Source: an uncultured bacterium
GTDB taxonomy: Bacteria > Bacillota_I > Bacilli_A > Acholeplasmatales > Anaeroplasmataceae
Reading direction: 5' to 3'
Assembly (NCBI GenBank): GCA_949291115.1
Contig: CASETY010000007.1
Span: 1 to 64,000 of the forward strand
DNA length: 64,000 nt
Shown here in pieces: positions 1,862 to 52,233 of the stretch; positions within the stretch are counted from its first letter, which is position 1; each line of letters opens with the position of its first letter. The notes under the pieces are model-generated. The model saw only the letters and a list, made by a program, of their open reading frames with translations, was not told where the DNA came from and did no database searches. A program made the position numbers and the translations under genes.

Positions 1862-4295
<2,434 letters not shown>

Positions 4296-27105: not shown

Positions 27106-29643
27106 GTTTGCGTGGTTTGTTAAACATTGCTATTACTAAACCGTTGAGTATTGACAAGTAAAGGCATTGTGTTTGCGTGGTTTGTTAAACATTGCTATTA
27201 CTAAACTATTTGCTGAACATACGTTTGACTATTCAGGTTTGCGTGGTTTGTTAAACATTGCTATTACTAAACGAACGAAATTTTAACAATCGCAAAATCA
27301 CTGTTTGCGTGGTTTGTTAAACATTGCTATTACTAAACTGAGGTTGGCGTTGATATTAGCGTGTATGGTTTGCGTGGTTTGTTAAACATTGCTATTACTA
27401 AACATTTTAAAGGTAAAGATATCCATATTAAAGGTTTGCGTGGTTTGTTAAACATTGCTATTACTAAACACAAGCGACACTTACAAAGAAAGATTTTTAG
27501 TTTGCGTGGTTTGTTAAACATTGCTATTACTAAACTTTCAATACGGCGCATTCTCTCACCGACTGTTTGCGTGGTTTGTTAAACATTGCTATTACTAAAC
27601 AACAAACATCGATTTTATCTTACTCCATAAGTTTGCGTGGTTTGTTAAACATTGCTATTACTAAACTTAAATTAATAAAAAAGGAGTATTTAGAAAGTTT
27701 GCGTGGTTTGTTAAACATTGCTATTACTAAACTCCTTTCAATTTCTTTTTTAACCTCATCTAGTTTGCGTGGTTTGTTAAACATTGCTATTACTAAACTC
27801 CTCATAAGCTGGTACGTCTACCACACTGTTTGCGTGGTTTGTTAAACATTGCTATTACTAAACAGAAGTCGCTCGGTGTCATTATGTCATTAGGTTTGCG
27901 TGGTTTGTTAAACATTGCTATTACTAAACTGGTCAAATGGAAGATATAGGACGAAAGCTGTTTGCGTGGTTTGTTAAACATTGCTATTACTAAACTTAAT
28001 AATTCATATAAGAGGCTATAACAAAGTTTGCGTGGTTTGTTAAACATTGCTATTACTAAACAACATTTAGGAATGGACGCTGACGAGGTTTGTTTGCGTG
28101 GTTTGTTAAACATTGCTATTACTAAACTCAAGCATTTTACGATATTCTTCATTAGTGGTTTGCGTGGTTTGTTAAACATTGCTATTACTAAACTCTTCTT
28201 TTTTCATAAACAACAACTTCAAAGTTTGCGTGGTTTGTTAAACATTGCTATTACTAAACTCTAACGTCGCCAACAACAATAACAGCAAAGTTTGCGTGGT
28301 TTGTTAAACATTGCTATTACTAAACAGTGGAAAGATTACGGCATTAGGAGCGACGGTTTGCGTGGTTTGTTAAACATTGCTATTACTAAACTTGGATAAA
28401 CGACCCATCTACTGCAAAGGCGTTTGCGTGGTTTGTTAAACATTGCTATTACTAAACTATGCCAATTTTATTATTTTCCATAGCATTGTTTGCGTGGTTT
28501 GTTAAACATTGCTATTACTAAACTAAATAGCTATCGTAAAAATGTTTAAATCTGTTTGCGTGGTTTGTTAAACATTGCTATTACTAAACACAGTTCTTAA
28601 AAAATTCAAGGACAACGATGTTTGCGTGGTTTGTTAAACATTGCTATTACTAAACTTATAAAACGTTTATATACGTTAATATTGTGTTTGCGTGGTTTGT
28701 TAAACATTGCTATTACTAAACGAACTAATAATTAACTATCGACCAAATGTAGTTTGCGTGGTTTGTTAAACATTGCTATTACTAAACTGGTAAAGAAAAA
28801 TGAAAGATTTAAGAAGGTTTGCGTGGTTTGTTAAACATTGCTATTACTAAACTCTTCTTCCGCTTCTTCCGTTGTTTGGCTAGTTTGCGTGGTTTGTTAA
28901 ACATTGCTATTACTAAACTTTTAGAAAGTAAGATGTGCGATTATACGCGTTTGCGTGGTTTGTTAAACATTGCTATTACTAAACATGGAAAGAAAATATA
29001 TGAGTTATATAACTGTTTGCGTGGTTTGTTAAACATTGCTATTACTAAACTACCTATAAGAAAGAAATTGAAAATGATAGGTTTGCGTGGTTTGTTAAAC
29101 ATTGCTATTACTAAACATTTAGTTTACAAAATAGAACAGGTCTAGGGTTTGCGTGGTTTGTTAAACATTGCTATTACTAAACTAGAACCTATTTTAAAAA
29201 AGCATAATAAAGGTTTGCGTGGTTTGTTAAACATTGCTATTACTAAACGATTTATTAAGATATCAAGGTAACCAATATGTTTGCGTGGTTTGTTAAACAT
29301 TGCTATTACTAAACCTGGAACTGGTAAAACCACTAAAGCAATTGTTTGCGTGGTTTGTTAAACATTGCTATTACTAAACTTAAAGAACGCTTTAGCTTCA
29401 TTTAAATCAGTTTGCGTGGTTTGTTAAACATTGCTATTACTAAACGAAGAAGAAGAACAATATATAAAGAAAGATGTTTGCGTGGTTTGTTAAACATTGC
29501 TATTACTAAACACCGCCTTGCAAGATATCGAAAATCAATTCGTTTGCGTGGTTTGTTAAACATTGCTATTACTAAACACAACTGACATCGCAAATAAGAC
29601 TGTTGTAGTTTGCGTGGTTTGTTAACAACTTACAACTTTAATC
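27106..29643 (+). CRISPR. Type II-A CRISPR array, 39 repeats and 38 spacers
   Basis: The repeat is 36 bp, beginning GTTTGCGTGGTTTG and ending CTATTACTAAAC, and looks identical in copies 1-38. Copy 39 (29608-29643) matches only its first 18 bases and marks the trailer end. Spacers are 30 nt except six of 29 nt (spacers 1, 4, 7, 11, 26, 34). Repeat starts run from 27106 to 29608. The crRNA strand is plus because the tracrRNA anti-repeat is complementary to this strand. Spacer 34 encodes a P-loop (GTGKTTKAI), consistent with a phage or plasmid NTPase target. I noticed no spacer matching the neighbouring prophage. Confidence 0.99.
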
Positions 29644-29685
29644 AGCGGAATTTACTTTTACAATTAACACATTAAACAAAGCAAC

Positions 29686-29715
29686 AAAAAACACTTGCAA
29701 TTTATTCGTGTTTTT
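29686..29715 (+). terminator. Possible array terminator
   Basis: AAAAACAC (29686-29693) can pair with GTGTTTTT (29708-29715). It overlaps the tRNA promoter. Confidence 0.5.
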
Positions 29716-29723
29716 GGTAAAAT
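29695..29723 (+). promoter_or_regulatory. tRNA-Lys promoter
   Basis: TTGCAA (29695-29700) and TGG-TAAAAT (29715-29723), 17-bp spacer, 20 bp before the tRNA. Confidence 0.7.
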
Positions 29724-29742
29724 AATTTTCGCAAATTGATTT

Positions 29743-29818
29743 GGACCCTTAGCTCAGTTGGTAGAGCAACTGACTCTTAATCAGTGGGTCTGGAGTTCGA
29801 GTCTCCAAGGGTCCACCA
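29743..29818 (+). tRNA. tRNA-Lys (anticodon CTT)
   Basis: A 76-nt cloverleaf. The acceptor GGACCCT pairs with AGGGTCC, then discriminator A and encoded CCA. The anticodon stem ACTGA/TCAGT holds the loop CTCTTAA with anticodon CTT; the T loop is TTCGAGT. It is the likely integration site of the prophage. Confidence 0.97.
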
Positions 29819-30114: not shown

Positions 30115-31266
30115 ATGATTTTAATGAATTTAGAATTAGAAAACATTGTTTGTTTTAATGATTTAAAAATGAATTTATCATTTCCTAAGAAATTAGTTAA
30201 CTCTTCATTAGAATTTGAATACTTAAAAAATTATCCTAATTTTAGATATAGAAAAATAAATATTATTTATGGTTCTAATTCTACTGGCAAAACGTCTTTA
30301 GCAAAAGTAATTTTGTATATAGTTAATTTTATATCTCATAAAAATATAGAAAATTTAAAAAAGCTGAAAGGAATAGGGACAGCAAATTCATATTTCTTGA
30401 TTGATTTTGTCGTTGATAGTCATCTATATAGAGTTGAATGTTTGATAGAAAATGAGGATTATAAAATTAATGTTCAAAAGCATCAACTATTAAAGTTAGA
30501 CACTTATGAAAAAGCCACGACAGATTTTACTACAAAAAAATTTAAAAATGTCATTCGTAATATTGAAACTTTAGATGAAATAAAAGATAATTTGGGCTGG
30601 TTTTTTTCTTTCCCAGAAGATATTACTTTTCAATCGTTTATGATTTATAGTGAAAAAGCAATTAGAGAAAATCAATTAAAAATTTTGAAAACAATTTTAA
30701 TGACTCTAGATACTAATATTAAAGATGTTAAGCCTTTAAAAATAAATGCCAAAGAAGAAATTGAAGATGCCTATGTAATTGAATTACATTCAAATAAATC
30801 TATTATTTGCCAAAATGGGAAACCAGTTGATAGCAATATTTTATCTAGCGGCACAAGAACAGCATTCAACTTAGCTATTTGTTTAACTTCGATGTTATTT
30901 AATTTGAACCAGTTTTATTATTTAGATGAACAATTTTGTTATTTAAATACTGATATTGAAAAAAGCATTATTTCTTTAATTACTCAATACATAAACAAAA
31001 AAGATGAACAAGTTTTTATAACTACTCATAATTTAGATATTTCAGAGTTAAATTTACCTAAGCATTCGTTTTGGTTTTTAATTAAAGAACCTGTAGAAGA
31101 TAAACAAGCAAACATTAAAATAATGTCTGCTAGTGATATTATAATAAAGAACAACGTTAATTTAAGAAATGCTATTGAAAATGATGTGTTTAATACTGCT
31201 CCAAAACTTGAAAACATTGATAATTTAGAAAATTTAATGGTAAATGAACTAAAGAAAGGGGAATGA
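30115..31266 (+). CDS. AAA15/ABC-type ATPase, possible phage-defence effector
   Basis: A 383-residue ATPase of the SMC/ABC-like class. Walker A is GSNSTGKTSLAK (about 54-65), the signature-like motif LSSGTRTAFNLAICL, Walker B FYYLDEQFCYLN and a H-loop FITTHNLDI. The middle (about 75-230) has no recognised nuclease domain. Proteins like this sit in abortive-infection and other defence systems, but this identification rests on architecture and location (integration-end accessory zone). It overlaps a small second gene, so the two probably work together. Confidence 0.75.
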   Translation: MILMNLELENIVCFNDLKMNLSFPKKLVNSSLEFEYLKNYPNFRYRKINIIYGSNSTGKTSLAKVILYIVNFISHKNIENLKKLKGIGTANSYFLIDFVVDSHLYRVECLIENEDYKINVQKHQLLKLDTYEKATTDFTTKKFKNVIRNIETLDEIKDNLGWFFSFPEDITFQSFMIYSEKAIRENQLKILKTILMTLDTNIKDVKPLKINAKEEIEDAYVIELHSNKSIICQNGKPVDSNILSSGTRTAFNLAICLTSMLFNLNQFYYLDEQFCYLNTDIEKSIISLITQYINKKDEQVFITTHNLDISELNLPKHSFWFLIKEPVEDKQANIKIMSASDIIIKNNVNLRNAIENDVFNTAPKLENIDNLENLMVNELKKGE

Positions 31267-31268
31267 TT

Positions 31269-31451
31269 ATGGCAGAAAAAATAAACGATGGTGAAACTGC
31301 AATCACTAGATATCTTAAAAAAACTAAAAAAATACAATTACATTTAAATCCAGATAAGGAACAAGATTTAATTGATTTTTTAGAAACAAAAGAAAATAAA
31401 ACTAAATATATTAAAAAACTTATCAGGAACGATATGGAGCAAACTAAGTAG
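31269..31451 (+). CDS. Small ribbon-helix-helix-like partner protein
   Basis: A 60-residue charged protein (MAEKINDGETAITRYLKK...). The pattern of a short strand (IQLHLN) followed by two helices ending KYIKKLIRND resembles ribbon-helix-helix DNA-binding proteins. I chose ATG 31269 over 31263 because the AAAGGGG site is then 8 bases away. A clear paralogue lies at 31938-32126. It follows the ATPase gene directly and may be its repressor, acting at the 30076 operator. Confidence 0.7.
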   Translation: MAEKINDGETAITRYLKKTKKIQLHLNPDKEQDLIDFLETKENKTKYIKKLIRNDMEQTK

Positions 31452-31831: not shown

Positions 31832-31954
31832 ATGCAAGCTTTAGAAATTACTGCTTATATTATGATGATCGTTTCTTGTTCTTTATATTTCATTGAGTTG
31901 ATTATTAAAGCAGTTGCAAAGAAGAAAAACAAATCTAATGCCGAAGATAATTAA
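31832..31954 (+). CDS. Second small hydrophobic peptide
   Basis: A 40-residue peptide, MQALEITAYIMMIVSCSL and onward, with one membrane helix and a KAVAKKKNK tail. It resembles the peptide at 31660 in helix-then-basic-tail layout and in the order I-A-Y ... I-K-A-V. No good ribosome-binding site precedes it. Its 3' end overlaps the next gene in another frame. It could be a decayed or differently regulated copy. Confidence 0.45.
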   Translation: MQALEITAYIMMIVSCSLYFIELIIKAVAKKKNKSNAEDN

Positions 31955-32126
31955 TGATGGATTAAACAGTCATTCTAGATATGAAAAAAAACTTAAAAAG
32001 GTTCAAATTAGATTTAATACTGATTATGAACAATACTTAGTTGACTATCTAGAAACTAAAGAGAACAAGAGCGAGTATATCAAAAATTTAATTAAAGCCG
32101 ATATGGAAAGAAACAAAAGAAGCTAG
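31938..32126 (+). CDS. Small ribbon-helix-helix-like protein, second copy
   Basis: A 62-residue protein (MPKIINDGLNSHSRYEKK...) that is a paralogue of the one at 31269: both share K-I-x-N/D-D-G, RY-x-KK-x-KK, and D-Y/F-LETKENK-x-YIK-L-I-x-x-DME. The ATG at 31938 gives the full match; an upstream in-frame ATG at 31914 has no support. It overlaps the hydrophobic peptide gene by 17 bp. Confidence 0.7.
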   Translation: MPKIINDGLNSHSRYEKKLKKVQIRFNTDYEQYLVDYLETKENKSEYIKNLIKADMERNKRS

Positions 32127-32143
32127 GGCAACCTAGCTTTTTC
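32120..32143. terminator. Bidirectional terminator
   Basis: AAGCTAGG (32120-32127) pairs with CCTAGCTT (32132-32139); T-runs follow on the plus strand (TTTTTC) and, weaker, on the minus strand. It separates the accessory zone from the integrase gene and overlaps both stops. Confidence 0.85.
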
Positions 32144-33245
32144 TCTTGATGTTTTTAGCAACTTCTTCATCATCAGTTTGTGATGCGTGAATATATATTT
32201 TTGATGCAGTTTCAGGCTCGTTACCGAGTCGTTGGCTAATAGTCCATTCGTCGTAGTTCATATTTCTTAAATAGGTGGCGTGACTGTGCCTAAATCCATG
32301 CAGTTTAATTTGTGGCAATTTAGCGAGAGCACAATGTTCTTTACAAATTCGCCTTATTTTTTGTTCATTATACGGTTTTGCTCCGTAGAACATAAACCAA
32401 CTCATTTTAAATCCTTTAACTATTCGTTTAGATAAAGCTATAAAATCTTCTAATTGAAATCTAGTAATTTCATCTAAAGTGACAATTCTTTTGCTATTAT
32501 CAGTTTTAAGACTTGTAAACTGACCAATACCGTTTATTACTTGCCATTGCCTATAAATATGTAATTTTCCATCAAATTCATAGTCTTTAAATTGCAAGGC
32601 TATAAGTTCACTAATTCTTAATCCCGTATAATATAATATAGAAAAAAGAAGCTTATAAAGTTGATCTAAATAACTATTTTCAAATGTTGATATAAATTTA
32701 TTAAATTCATTTTCTGTGAATATTACCGGTTTTTTATTATCTTTCTTAATAGAATAGTCTTTAAATGGTTCTCTAAGTGGTGCTATTAAGTTTGATTCTA
32801 ACTTATAAACATCAATTCCATATTGAATTAAGTTTCGCATATTAGCTAAAATTTTGTTCTTAGAATCAACCGTTATATTTTTATTACTGAGTTTTTTACG
32901 CCATTCCAATAACGTTGTTGGTTTTAAAACATCTAGTCTAGTATGACCGATAGATATTAGATAATTGTTTTTAAACATTTGAAATCTACGTTTTGTAGTA
33001 TCTTTAATAACTTTAGTTTCGACGTATTCATCCCAAAGTTCATATAAAAAGTATCGTTGAAGATATGTGTTCGCTTCCTTATAATTTAGTTGAGATAAGT
33101 AGTAGTATTCAGCATTTAAGGCTTCAATTTTAGTTAGCATTGGTTTCCCTTGCCAAGTTCTACGGCAATAGTGAACACCTTTATAGCTACCTTGAAAATA
33201 CCAGCGTTTTTTGCCTTTGCTGTCTGTATATTTATACGCCGGCAT
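32133..33245 (-). CDS. int: Tyrosine-type phage integrase
   Basis: A 370-residue site-specific recombinase. An N-terminal arm-binding AP2-like region (KGKKRWYFQGSYKGVHY) precedes a SAM-like core-binding domain (about 60-165) and the catalytic domain with Arg in YYTGLRISELIAL, the HGFRHSHATYL box and the Tyr nucleophile in ASKIYIHAS. It catalyses insertion, probably at the tRNA-Lys gene. It overlaps the small upstream gene by 14 bp. Confidence 0.95.
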   Translation of the reverse strand: MPAYKYTDSKGKKRWYFQGSYKGVHYCRRTWQGKPMLTKIEALNAEYYYLSQLNYKEANTYLQRYFLYELWDEYVETKVIKDTTKRRFQMFKNNYLISIGHTRLDVLKPTTLLEWRKKLSNKNITVDSKNKILANMRNLIQYGIDVYKLESNLIAPLREPFKDYSIKKDNKKPVIFTENEFNKFISTFENSYLDQLYKLLFSILYYTGLRISELIALQFKDYEFDGKLHIYRQWQVINGIGQFTSLKTDNSKRIVTLDEITRFQLEDFIALSKRIVKGFKMSWFMFYGAKPYNEQKIRRICKEHCALAKLPQIKLHGFRHSHATYLRNMNYDEWTISQRLGNEPETASKIYIHASQTDDEEVAKNIKRKS

Positions 33246-33432
33246 AAATTACCTCATCAACCTTTACATTAAAGAATTTAGAGCAAAGAAAAGCAATTTG
33301 CCAAGGTAAAAATTTGCGCATTAAAATATAGTCCTCGGTTTCTTTTAAGGTTAGCCCTAAATACTCGGCTAGTTCATCACCAGTCTTTAAATTTTTAATT
33401 AATAAATTTAAAATGTTGTTTTCTTTAATCAT
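33232..33432 (-). CDS. Small phage regulator next to integrase
   Basis: A 66-residue protein with a possible helix-turn-helix (GDELAEYLGLTLKETEDYI) and a conserved tail (PWQIAFLCSKFFNVKVDEVI) seen in XRE-like phage proteins. Because it overlaps int it may be an excisionase or directionality factor. AAGGAG lies upstream. Confidence 0.6.
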   Translation of the reverse strand: MIKENNILNLLIKNLKTGDELAEYLGLTLKETEDYILMRKFLPWQIAFLCSKFFNVKVDEVIYAGV

Positions 33433-33504
33433 TGTTTTTAATTCTCCTTGTTATTTTTATAAAAAAGTATTGAAAAAAGATTTAATTTAAATTAAAATAA
33501 TCAT

Positions 33505-33598
33505 ACTGAGATTAGCTTGTGTGGATTAAAGCTGGGCTGGCTGTGCCAGTAAGACTTAATGTCGAGATGCCTTTGCTCCTGGGGCTAATCTTTTTTTT
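33505..33598 (+). ncRNA. Structured small RNA, plus strand
   Basis: A promoter TTGAAA (33470-33475) and TAAAAT (33493-33498) with a 17-bp spacer starts it near 33505. An 8-bp closing stem AGATTAGC (33509-33516) with GCTAATCT (33584-33591) is followed by a run of Ts. Inside are CTGGC-TGT-GCCAG, nested in ATTAA/TTAAT, and a GC-rich 3' half. It is about 95 nt with no reading frame. It converges on the next RNA. Confidence 0.65.
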
Positions 33599-33610
33599 AT
33601 TTATTTCAAC

Positions 33611-33725
33611 AAAAAATAAAAGGGTGCCTATTTCTAGACACCCTGCCTATATGTTTCACGTACTTAACATACGCTTAGACTTCTACCCCTAATGGGCTTA
33701 GGTCGAAATCATACCAGGTCTTGGT
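33611..33725 (-). ncRNA. Structured small RNA downstream of the DUF3800 gene
   Basis: Minus-strand promoter TTGACA (33760-33755) and TATACT (33737-33732), 17-bp spacer, overlaps the end of the DUF3800 gene. The RNA would begin ACCAAGACCTGGT (small hairpin), contain CCTAA/TTAGG and GTATGTT/AACATAT hairpins, and end at a terminator stem AGGGTG/CACCCT (33644-33639 with 33626-33621) plus TTTTATTTTTT. About 115 nt. Families of RNAs beside DUF3800 genes have been described; whether this is one of them is not tested. Confidence 0.7.
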
Positions 33726-33740
33726 ATCTATAGTATATAA

Positions 33741-34463
33741 TTATTTTGTTTTTTTGTCAATTTTAAATTTTGGCGGGTTTATTCCAAAAGTTTTGAAAGG
33801 GAATTTAGATTGCTTGATTAATTTAAATAAATCCATGTCTAAATGATATATAATTTTATGTCCAGTAAAGTTATAACTTTTCCATAATGCGTTAGCTATA
33901 TAATCTGCCATTTGGATTTCTCTGTTTTTTTTCGAGTCTAAATATTTAACAATAAATTTTTTTTCATAAGATAGAGAATAAACAAATTCTAAATTTAAAA
34001 AAGTTTCTAAGTCATTAGCGCTTTTAACTGCAGTTGAACGATTGTCGAGCAAAAGAACTATATTATATGCTTCGTTCAATATCGGTATATTGCAATTTAA
34101 TAAATAATTAATTAAATTTTTGACAAAATAATTATAAGCTAAATTTTCAGAAGCTTTAAAATTATCGAGTTGATATTTATCAATTGTTATTGAAACGCCA
34201 ATGACTTCGTTAATTTTCAATAGATCATTAATAAATGTTGCTTGCTGTTTTGGGGTTATATTAGATGACTTTAGTTCTCTATGATTATGAAAGTCTATTT
34301 TTTTAATAGTAAGCACTTCCTTTTCAATCTTTTTGTGGCAACTTTTAACTTTGTTAATATTAGTTGTTAAATATCCGCCAATTATAAAATAACGTTCATT
34401 TTTTAAATGCATTGCGCCACTTTCATCTAAAACTAAATAACATTGTTTATGACCATCATTCAT
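33741..34463 (-). CDS. DUF3800 domain protein
   Basis: A 240-residue protein with the DUF3800 pattern: an N-terminal strand with LVLDESGAM, a second strand FIIGGYL, a middle acidic site LLLDNRST and a C-terminal QMADYIANALW. This arrangement of acidic residues is RNase H-like, so a nuclease role is possible but unproven. It lies between the ImmA-like gene and a structured RNA with its own promoter, so the RNA may be its partner or target. Confidence 0.85.
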   Translation of the reverse strand: MNDGHKQCYLVLDESGAMHLKNERYFIIGGYLTTNINKVKSCHKKIEKEVLTIKKIDFHNHRELKSSNITPKQQATFINDLLKINEVIGVSITIDKYQLDNFKASENLAYNYFVKNLINYLLNCNIPILNEAYNIVLLLDNRSTAVKSANDLETFLNLEFVYSLSYEKKFIVKYLDSKKNREIQMADYIANALWKSYNFTGHKIIYHLDMDLFKLIKQSKFPFKTFGINPPKFKIDKKTK

Positions 34464-34482: not shown

Positions 34483-34908
34483 TTAATAACTATGAATTTC
34501 TAAAATTCCTTTTTGATACATATATCTAATAGCATCTTCAACTGATAGTTGACTTATATTTAAAATATCGGCTATTTCGTAAGGTTCATATTCCTTGCAA
34601 AATAGCTCTTTTATTTTATCTAAAGGTAGAAAATTCTTACACATATAATTGATTGCTCTTGTTTCTTGCTTGTTTATACGCTTACTAGTACTCTCAAAAT
34701 TATAAAAAGAAGAAGTATTGTAATGCGCTAATTCATGTTTAATAAAGTGTACTTTATCTAATGTGGGGAGTTCTTTGTTTACAAAAATACCTATGTTTTG
34801 AAAAGCTTTAATAATAACAGATTCAAACGAAGCATCTATTAAGTCTTTTTCGTAATATTTAATATTGTTATCATATAAATATTGTTCTAGTTCCTCAAGT
34901 TCAGTCAT
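34483..34908 (-). CDS. ImmA/IrrE-type metallopeptidase
   Basis: A 141-residue zinc-peptidase with HELAHY (HExxH) at about residues 57-62. In ICEBs1-like and phage systems ImmA cleaves the repressor to induce the element; here the repressor gene is immediately upstream in the operon. I chose ATG 34908 because GGAGGT lies 5 bases upstream; a start at 34944 has none. The C-terminal part contains a helix-turn-helix-like stretch (YEPYEIADILNISQLSVEDAI). Confidence 0.85.
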   Translation of the reverse strand: MTELEELEQYLYDNNIKYYEKDLIDASFESVIIKAFQNIGIFVNKELPTLDKVHFIKHELAHYNTSSFYNFESTSKRINKQETRAINYMCKNFLPLDKIKELFCKEYEPYEIADILNISQLSVEDAIRYMYQKGILEIHSY

Positions 34909-34969
34909 TCTATACCTCCGTGTTAACCGTTTTTGTTTAAGCATAGAGTAAAATAAAAAGAGTATGCTA

Positions 34970-35287
34970 TTAATTTTTATTCTTATCGGCTAACATTTGA
35001 GCCAAGTTCATTATAGTTTCTTTATCTTTGTCAGTAAGGTCTTGTTCTAAGCCACCAAGTGCGAAAGTAGTATTAGTAAATTTAGGATTACGAACATCAG
35101 ATTTCCCTAACAAGTAGTCTGTACTTACGTTGAAATAATCAGCAAAAATAATTGCATTTTCAGCAGTTATTCCTCGTTCCCCTCTTTCAATCATAGCTAT
35201 GGCAGATGGTGACATCTTTAAATCTTTGGCTACATCGTAAATCGTTTTATTTTGTTCTTTTCTTAATGTTCTAATTTTGGTTATCAT
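34970..35287 (-). CDS. CI-like XRE repressor
   Basis: A 105-residue repressor with an N-terminal XRE helix-turn-helix (TIYDVAKDLKMSPSAIAMIERGERG) and the typical FNVSTDYLLGKSD ending of the domain. The C-terminal 35 residues are variable and probably receive the ImmA signal. Divergent from the cro-like gene across a 150-bp control region. Likely keeps the lysogenic state. Confidence 0.92.
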   Translation of the reverse strand: MITKIRTLRKEQNKTIYDVAKDLKMSPSAIAMIERGERGITAENAIIFADYFNVSTDYLLGKSDVRNPKFTNTTFALGGLEQDLTDKDKETIMNLAQMLADKNKN

Positions 35288-52112: not shown

Positions 52113-52161
52113 GTTGAAGCTGTGAAACATTAAAACAAAGCACTGGTTGAAGTTATGAAAC
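52113..52161 (+). repeat. Direct repeat GTTGAAGYTRTGAAAC
   Basis: GTTGAAGCTGTGAAAC (52113-52128) and GTTGAAGTTATGAAAC (52146-52161) differ at two positions. They lie before the scaffold gene, with a small GGTG/CACC hairpin at 52193-52209. I see no gene between 52108 and 52233. Confidence 0.4.
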
Positions 52162-52233
52162 CTAAAAAACGAAACAATCATTTTAAATCTATGGTGGAGG
52201 CTACACACCTAAAAACAGCCTAAAGGAGAAGAA

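Follow-up and report, generated by a model that had tools for sequence, protein, structure and literature searches.

Two convergent small RNAs in a prophage lysogeny module: a divergent DUF3800-I-type RNA beside a DUF3800 gene and a putative orphan of a DUF3644-associated RNA family

The sequence analyzed here (the window) covers the first 64,000 nucleotides of contig CASETY010000007.1, from an uncultured bacterium of the Anaeroplasmataceae, and it contains the lysogeny module of a prophage. Along the minus strand, this module comprises a CI-like repressor with a family match to HTH_3 (34970-35287), an ImmA/IrrE-like gene (34483-34944), a DUF3800 gene (33741-34463), an xis-like ORF (33232-33432) and a tyrosine integrase (32133-33245; PF00589, E 2.9e-18) that is 76% identical in genome G002. 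The ImmA/IrrE-like gene is a conserved prophage gene beside the cargo site described below; it returned no match in a family search and is likely of this type from its position and HELAH motif, and it has a homologue in another prophage, L228. The small conserved ORF at 33232-33432 is excisionase-like by position, also gave no family match and is near-identical in L228. The gap between the DUF3800 gene and this ORF holds two non-coding elements in convergent orientation.

The prophage seemingly starts beyond a tRNA-Lys gene (29743-29818), whose 3' end has no att repeat that we could find within the window. A CRISPR-like array with 15 copies of the 28-mer GTTTGCGTGGTTTGTTAAACATTGCTAT lies directly upstream of the tRNA (28600-29740). 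On its other side, between the tRNA-Lys and the integrase, the plus strand encodes an AAA/RecF-like ATPase (30115-31266; PF13304, AbiEii-type description) that may be another cargo gene at this end of the prophage. It is followed on the same strand by two small ORFs (31263-31451 and 31914-32126) whose products, FLETKENKTKYIKKLIRNDME and YLETKENKSEYIKNLIKADME, resemble diverged copies of each other; the second has no useful Pfam match. Farther along the window, a GP20-b RNA (RF03003) at 52145-52222 on the plus strand scores 36.5 bits, just over the gathering score of 36.2.

The DUF3800 gene encodes 240 amino acids and matches PF12686 with 50.1 bits (E 6.4e-13) against a Pfam cut-off of 21; it is the only DUF3800 homologue we found in this genome. 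DUF3800 proteins are RNase H fold nucleases that occur beside noncoding RNAs and at some Cas12a2 and Cas13 loci (PMC10910872, PMC12669027). Eight residues (D13, S15, G16, E63, K65, D140, S177 and D187) are invariant across 28 homologues, and all are present in the window protein, which thus keeps the putative catalytic D13, E63, D140 and D187 intact. We modeled the protein with AlphaFold, using the window sequence and viral homologues as input, and obtained a structure of moderate confidence (pLDDT 68, pTM 0.71). Its best Foldseek match is RNase HII (1eke; E 1.6e-5, probability 1.00), and the top 22 matches are all RNase H2/HII structures, so the window protein is predicted to be an RNase HII-like nuclease with an RNase H fold. 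Peptide patterns of this protein found no counterpart in viral contigs, and a broad DUF3800 alignment was too diverse for use as a search query. Phage homologues of about 25% identity occur in Streptococcus satellite phages (MK448537.1, MK448651.1 and MK448417.1), where DUF3800 and the integrase are neighbors separated by an unannotated stretch of several hundred bases; an Rfam scan of these three loci found no DUF3800 RNAs, DUF3800-I included.

The first of the two facing elements is encoded on the minus strand. An initial annotation of the window had placed an RNA here with a near-consensus promoter and an intrinsic terminator, and both are present. The promoter (33732-33760, TTGACA-17-TATACT) matches 11 of 12 positions and overlaps the last DUF3800 codons, and the terminator (33621-33644) has a 10-bp stem followed by the U-rich UUUUAUUUUUU. 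The annotation also had the RNA starting inside the DUF3800 gene. The -35 box does lie within the last codons, but the likely start, at about 33725, falls past the stop codon, giving a predicted transcript of about 33725-33611. Its predicted fold (-36.3 kcal/mol, z -3.1) is equaled by 2 of 200 shuffled sequences.

Permissive searches with Rfam models identified this transcript as a divergent member of the DUF3800-I type (RF02969). The match (33611-33743) covers model positions 1-115 with 32.7 bits (E 0.003 in 461 nt), and a genome-wide scan with the same model returned it as the single match (E 0.0017), overlapping the end of the one DUF3800 gene detected. Because the score falls short of the RF02969 cut-off of 44.2 bits, we describe it as divergent DUF3800-I-type and not as a curated member. 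The window RNA shares with the family the conserved hairpin UAAGCGUA..UAAGUACG, the closing stem, the terminator and a directly adjoining DUF3800 gene; it differs in lacking the model's first hairpin, in its gene-first order and in a promoter placed inside the gene end. Gene-then-RNA order recurs with the closest DUF3800 that we found in other genomes (L004, about 50% identical), where a 32.6-bit DUF3800-I match follows the gene at a chromosomal, non-prophage site between tRNA-Arg and ruvA. Three further loci (L013, L058 and L060) share this gene-first order, and in all four the RNA has a closing stem of 6-7 bp at matching positions, a comparison to which we give little weight because the stem length is not above that in shuffles.

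The minus-strand RNA is of a published DUF3800 RNA type, and its link to DUF3800 is kept in other genomes. DUF3800-I RNAs are present in 36 of the 392 genomes of our phylum sample. Of 34 loci examined, 20 have a DUF3800 gene no more than about 1.5 kb away; gene and RNA most often abut, and the RNA may be 5' of, 3' of or opposite the gene in both orientations. At the other 14 loci there is no DUF3800 within this distance, so the RNA may also act apart from the gene. Several genomes (G517, G553, G603, G551 and G541) have more than one DUF3800-I RNA, many without a close DUF3800 gene, and one G517 locus (C1:718426-719346) has five in tandem over about 0.9 kb. A MAFFT alignment of DUF3800-I RNAs was too ragged (41% identity) for us to build a model from it. 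At another DUF3800 gene end (L029, 2131-2244, minus strand), we found a match to RmaA (RF02629) at 36.6 bits against 57 (E 0.007); this element could be a further DUF3800-linked RNA.

The second element, on the plus strand, faces the first and has its own promoter and terminator, as the initial annotation described. The predicted transcript (about 33505-33598) follows a promoter (33470-33498, TTGAAA-17-TAAAAT) that matches 10 of 12 positions and is identical in the sister prophage L066, and its closing stem, GAGATTAGCUU/GGGGCUAAUCU, leads into a run of eight U residues. There is no credible coding sequence in either RNA, in agreement with the earlier reading of both as non-coding. That both are folded was borne out by folding energy for the minus RNA; for the plus RNA, folding alone is unconvincing (z -1.8, unremarkable against shuffles), yet this RNA proved to be covarying and conserved. 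Promoter-like sites in the region are at chance level, with 15 observed and 14.6 in shuffles. Since promoters are at chance level and folding is convincing for the minus RNA only, the case for the plus RNA rests on conservation. Neither RNA passes an Rfam gathering scan of the window, and permissive Rfam matches of the plus RNA to snoRNA and Hfq-RNA families are chance matches, none of them credible.

In a DNA search across 395 genomes, three others proved to have copies of the plus RNA, at 86, 77 and 71% identity. None of these copies adjoins a DUF3800 gene; all three are found at the 3' end of a DUF3644-type gene. A two-block pattern, run against genome and viral contigs, extended the family to 41 distinct RNAs outside the window, a count of distinct sequences and not of independent events. 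The hosts are Bacillota, Actinobacteria (Corynebacterium), Ruminobacter, a Gastranaerophilales genome and phages; blastn against INPHARED phages found no members. The family is absent from Rfam 15, and no Rfam family matched it at gathering score. When compared with the family model R1, which was built without the window, the window RNA (33502-33607) scores 81.6 bits (E 3.7e-18), and it has kept the core that is invariant in the family, along with the closing stem, terminator and promoter.

Comparison of the aligned members establishes a conserved, covarying structure. Standard pairs make up 98.9% of the paired cells, and 10 pairs differ on both sides; the covariation score exceeds that of all 500 shuffles, and it collapses when the partner is shifted by a single column. 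The invariance of the inner helix P2 is partly made by the search, whose pattern fixed P2 letters, and two members found through their proteins (L390 and L394) vary there. Hairpin P4 is visible in nearly all members, with a stem length barely above that in shuffles, and many members have a -10 box shortly before the closing stem. Variable positions are concentrated in helices P1, P3 and P4, with compensatory changes, and mean identity is 0.885 at unpaired positions, 0.776 in P1 and 0.69 in the P4 region. A guide function, which had been suggested earlier, would call for a variable unpaired segment beside a conserved scaffold. We found no such segment in the plus RNA, and a guide role is less likely because the variation is structural and most junction and loop positions are conserved.

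The plus RNA has a different protein neighbor from the minus RNA. The three copies found by DNA search adjoin genes that encode DUF3644 (PF12358, lowest E 2.8e-51) together with an EC042_2821-like C-terminal domain (PF18740), or its C-terminal part. With the DUF3644 profile, 27 of the 41 distinct RNAs outside the window have a convergent DUF3644-type gene whose stop codon is at or near the RNA 3' end, and two more cases (L090 and L100) were added to these. In the reciprocal direction, searching 306 genomes with PF12358 gave seven genes above the cut-off; the RNA accompanies all six that have the C-terminal domain and is missing from the one that lacks it. Judged by this association, DUF3644 is the regular partner of the plus RNA. 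The arrangement is not obligately antisense, because in L394 the RNA follows DUF3644 on the same strand. In L106 (1932-2930, plus strand), the N-terminal half of the protein is PLD-like by sequence reading, with no library match, while the C-terminal domain and the plus RNA are kept; this combination suggests that the part linked to the RNA is the C-terminal domain.

PMC3710099 places DUF3644 among the HEPN families, and R102-N103-x3-H107, an R-N-x3-H motif, is conserved in these proteins. Sequence searches found no relatives in the PDB, and a Foldseek search with a DUF3644 model placed HEPN structures highest in probability with no significant E-value. The proteins adjoining the plus RNA match models of the PADLOC defense candidate PDC-S19 (up to 5.6e-142). 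PDC-S19 is a protein-only candidate whose models have no RNA component, and its protein is absent from the window; the literature we searched contained no description of an RNA associated with DUF3644. About 12 plus-RNA loci are without DUF3644, so the RNA may function without this protein. At five type I restriction-modification loci (L085, L092, L093, L094 and L140), a family member lies directly 3' of hsdM and faces it. In one of them, L093, hsdM and the RNA are separated by a short remnant of the DUF3644 C-terminus, which points to a replacement at these loci like the one we propose for the window.

One family member (L119) matches a DUF3800 RNA model, DUF3800-VII (RF02967), at 27.5 bits (E 0.0011; cut-off 36.2). 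The two RNAs share a closing stem, an inner helix GGAUAA/AUCC, two hairpins and a U-tract, a likeness that hints at a wider RNA clan; they differ in partner, which for the plus RNA is DUF3644 and not DUF3800. The window RNA does not match DUF3800-VII up to E 10, and fourteen other members match none of the DUF3800 RNA models. Blastn of the DUF3800-VII consensus against plasmids and a pattern scan of viral contigs found no DUF3800-VII loci, so the relation consists of a single sub-threshold match. The L119 RNA itself (4139-4246, minus strand) lies in a prophage and overlaps the 3' end of a gene that reads as Abi_2/AbiF-like.

How an RNA of this family comes to face a DUF3800-I-type RNA is suggested by L228, a sister prophage from the same genus that is 74-80% identical along the lysogeny module. 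There, DUF3644 lies between the ImmA-like gene and the plus RNA, and DUF3800 is absent from the site. In a blastn comparison, homology between the window and L228 ends at 33596, the 3' end of the plus RNA, and resumes at 34461, the DUF3800 start codon. These exact breaks mean that an 865-bp cassette (33597-34461, minus strand) of DUF3800 and its DUF3800-I RNA sits in the place of DUF3644. Neither DUF3644 nor a remnant was found at the window site, and PF12358 found no match in the window's own genome (about 91% complete; this search had no positive control, and the same model detected the G002 gene). Sequence comparison thus demonstrates the partner association and the cassette boundaries, and on this basis DUF3644 appears to have been replaced in the window, leaving the plus RNA as an intact orphan. 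The window RNA shares a rare middle-hairpin subtype with L065 and L100, whose DUF3644 C-termini are alike. The order in L100 is DUF3644 tail, plus RNA, DUF3800 and a strong DUF3800-I RNA (65.6 bits), so the plus RNA there is convergent with the DUF3644 C-terminus and merely neighbors a separate DUF3800/DUF3800-I pair. As judged from these comparisons, both small RNAs are real, are conserved elsewhere and are members of different systems.

We consider it probable that the slot between the repressor and integrase genes is a cargo site for RNA-nuclease modules, holding DUF3800 and its cognate DUF3800-I RNA at present together with a plus RNA orphaned from a replaced DUF3644 module. The initial annotation had instead suggested one guide- or antitoxin-like DUF3800 system with two RNAs; one RNA might, for example, be an antitoxin or scaffold and the other a guide or regulator. 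That both RNAs sit beside DUF3800 in the window and in L100, with plus RNAs of the same rare subtype, speaks for such a system, as does the weak DUF3800-VII match of the L119 relative. However, these are two of about 100 loci; the plus RNA is missing at about 60 other DUF3800/DUF3800-I loci, the sister prophage pairs it with DUF3644 and has no DUF3800 at the site, the L100 and L065 plus RNAs are also convergent with a DUF3644 C-terminus, and the fourteen members without a DUF3800 model match count against it as well. Together these observations make a two-RNA DUF3800 system quite improbable, and the expectation that the plus RNA would be conserved near other DUF3800 genes did not hold outside L100. 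The RNAs might also be cis-antisense or terminator elements that regulate the mRNA of the convergent gene without binding protein, given that most plus RNAs overlap the convergent stop codon or end a few bases from it. This account has little chance of being right: the L394 RNA is on the same strand as DUF3644, the most conserved letters lie within the RNA, away from the overlap, and conservation extends across phyla, and the presence of the RNA follows the C-terminal domain of the protein.

Other alternatives concern what the plus RNA does in the prophage. It adjoins the xis-like and integrase genes, and its flanks are conserved in the sister prophage, so the RNA or its promoter region could act as a lysogeny switch over excision and integration, with the cargo gene incidental; but elsewhere the RNA follows DUF3644 with no adjoining integrase (as in L067) or stands beside hsdM at restriction-modification loci, and we regard a switch as highly improbable. 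A more substantial alternative is that the orphan mimics an antitoxin, as a counter-defense or anti-addiction element that shields the lysogen from DUF3644 nucleases of the host or of rival phages. A pseudo-ToxI is the means by which phage PhiTE escapes ToxIN. The window RNA has kept its core, stem, terminator and promoter with no DUF3644 found in the genome, orphans recur, some of them in apparent prophages (L097 and L117/L209), and the L093 remnant fits this reading too. Recent loss of the partner accounts equally for an intact orphan, though, and the genome's incompleteness weakens the absence of DUF3644; we judge such an antidote unlikely. Under the cargo-site reading, the orphan may be either a relic or an antidote. 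A bolder extension would make the plus RNA the unrecognized half of PDC-S19, bound by the C-terminal domain and restraining swappable HEPN or PLD-like nucleases, with orphans serving as antidotes and the slot refilled by the DUF3800 pair. We hold this full version to be rather unlikely.

The closest functional parallel for DUF3644 with the plus RNA is AbiF and its RNA. In a Clostridioides difficile prophage, the HEPN protein AbiF (RNQCAH) is toxic and is neutralized in cis and in trans by the RCd22 RNA, which it binds directly (PMC12373285). The abiF RNA (RF03085; RCd22 in phage phi027) likewise pairs a prophage HEPN RNase with the R-N-x3-H motif and an adjoining structured RNA of about 100 nt that has its own terminator. 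The likeness has limits: Pfam does not call DUF3644 with its EC042_2821-like C-terminal domain Abi_2, the plus RNA is usually convergent at the gene 3' end and not upstream, and the window is without a HEPN protein. RF03085 gave no match up to E 10 in the RNAs we scanned, and the window proteins that we scanned include no Abi_2. A small structured RNA beside a nuclease gene on a mobile element is also the layout of type III toxin-antitoxin systems (ToxIN, CptIN and TenpIN). They differ in that the window RNAs are single-copy and lie 3' of the gene or face it, with no tandem repeats 5' of a toxin, in their protein folds and in the separate promoters of RNA and gene here.

From these precedents, our best functional guess is that the locus would be an antitoxin-like RNA-nuclease module in the prophage lysogeny region, and the most likely mechanism would be type III-antitoxin-like control of nucleases, as with AbiF. 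The slot between the repressor and ImmA-like genes and the excisionase and integrase genes would take up modules of RNA and nuclease. In the window, the DUF3800-I RNA would be transcribed from its own promoter at the DUF3800 3' end. By analogy to AbiF, each RNA would bind its partner protein and keep the nuclease in check, and in DUF3644 the RNA-contacting part would presumably be the C-terminal domain. Disturbance by another phage might then free the nuclease and halt growth. The analogy is indirect for the module now in place because the chemistry of DUF3800 is RNase H-like and not HEPN, and we infer RNA restraint of the RNase HII-like DUF3800 nuclease on that footing.

These findings describe a widespread structured RNA outside Rfam 15 that is tied to a HEPN-protein defense candidate by searches starting from the RNA as well as from the protein. 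If the pairing is confirmed, half of the system would be overlooked wherever PDC-S19 proteins are assayed on their own, and DUF3644 with its RNA would be a second HEPN/RNA pair beside AbiF, the proposed ancestor of Cas13. That the C-terminal domain occurs with either a HEPN or a PLD-like N-terminus leads to a testable hypothesis of modular RNA binding. The DUF3800/DUF3800-I pair is predicted to be a small natural unit, 865 bp long, in which the function of this pairing could be studied. Finally, the exact exchange of cassettes suggests that different RNA-nuclease modules compete for one slot in the lysogeny module of these prophages.
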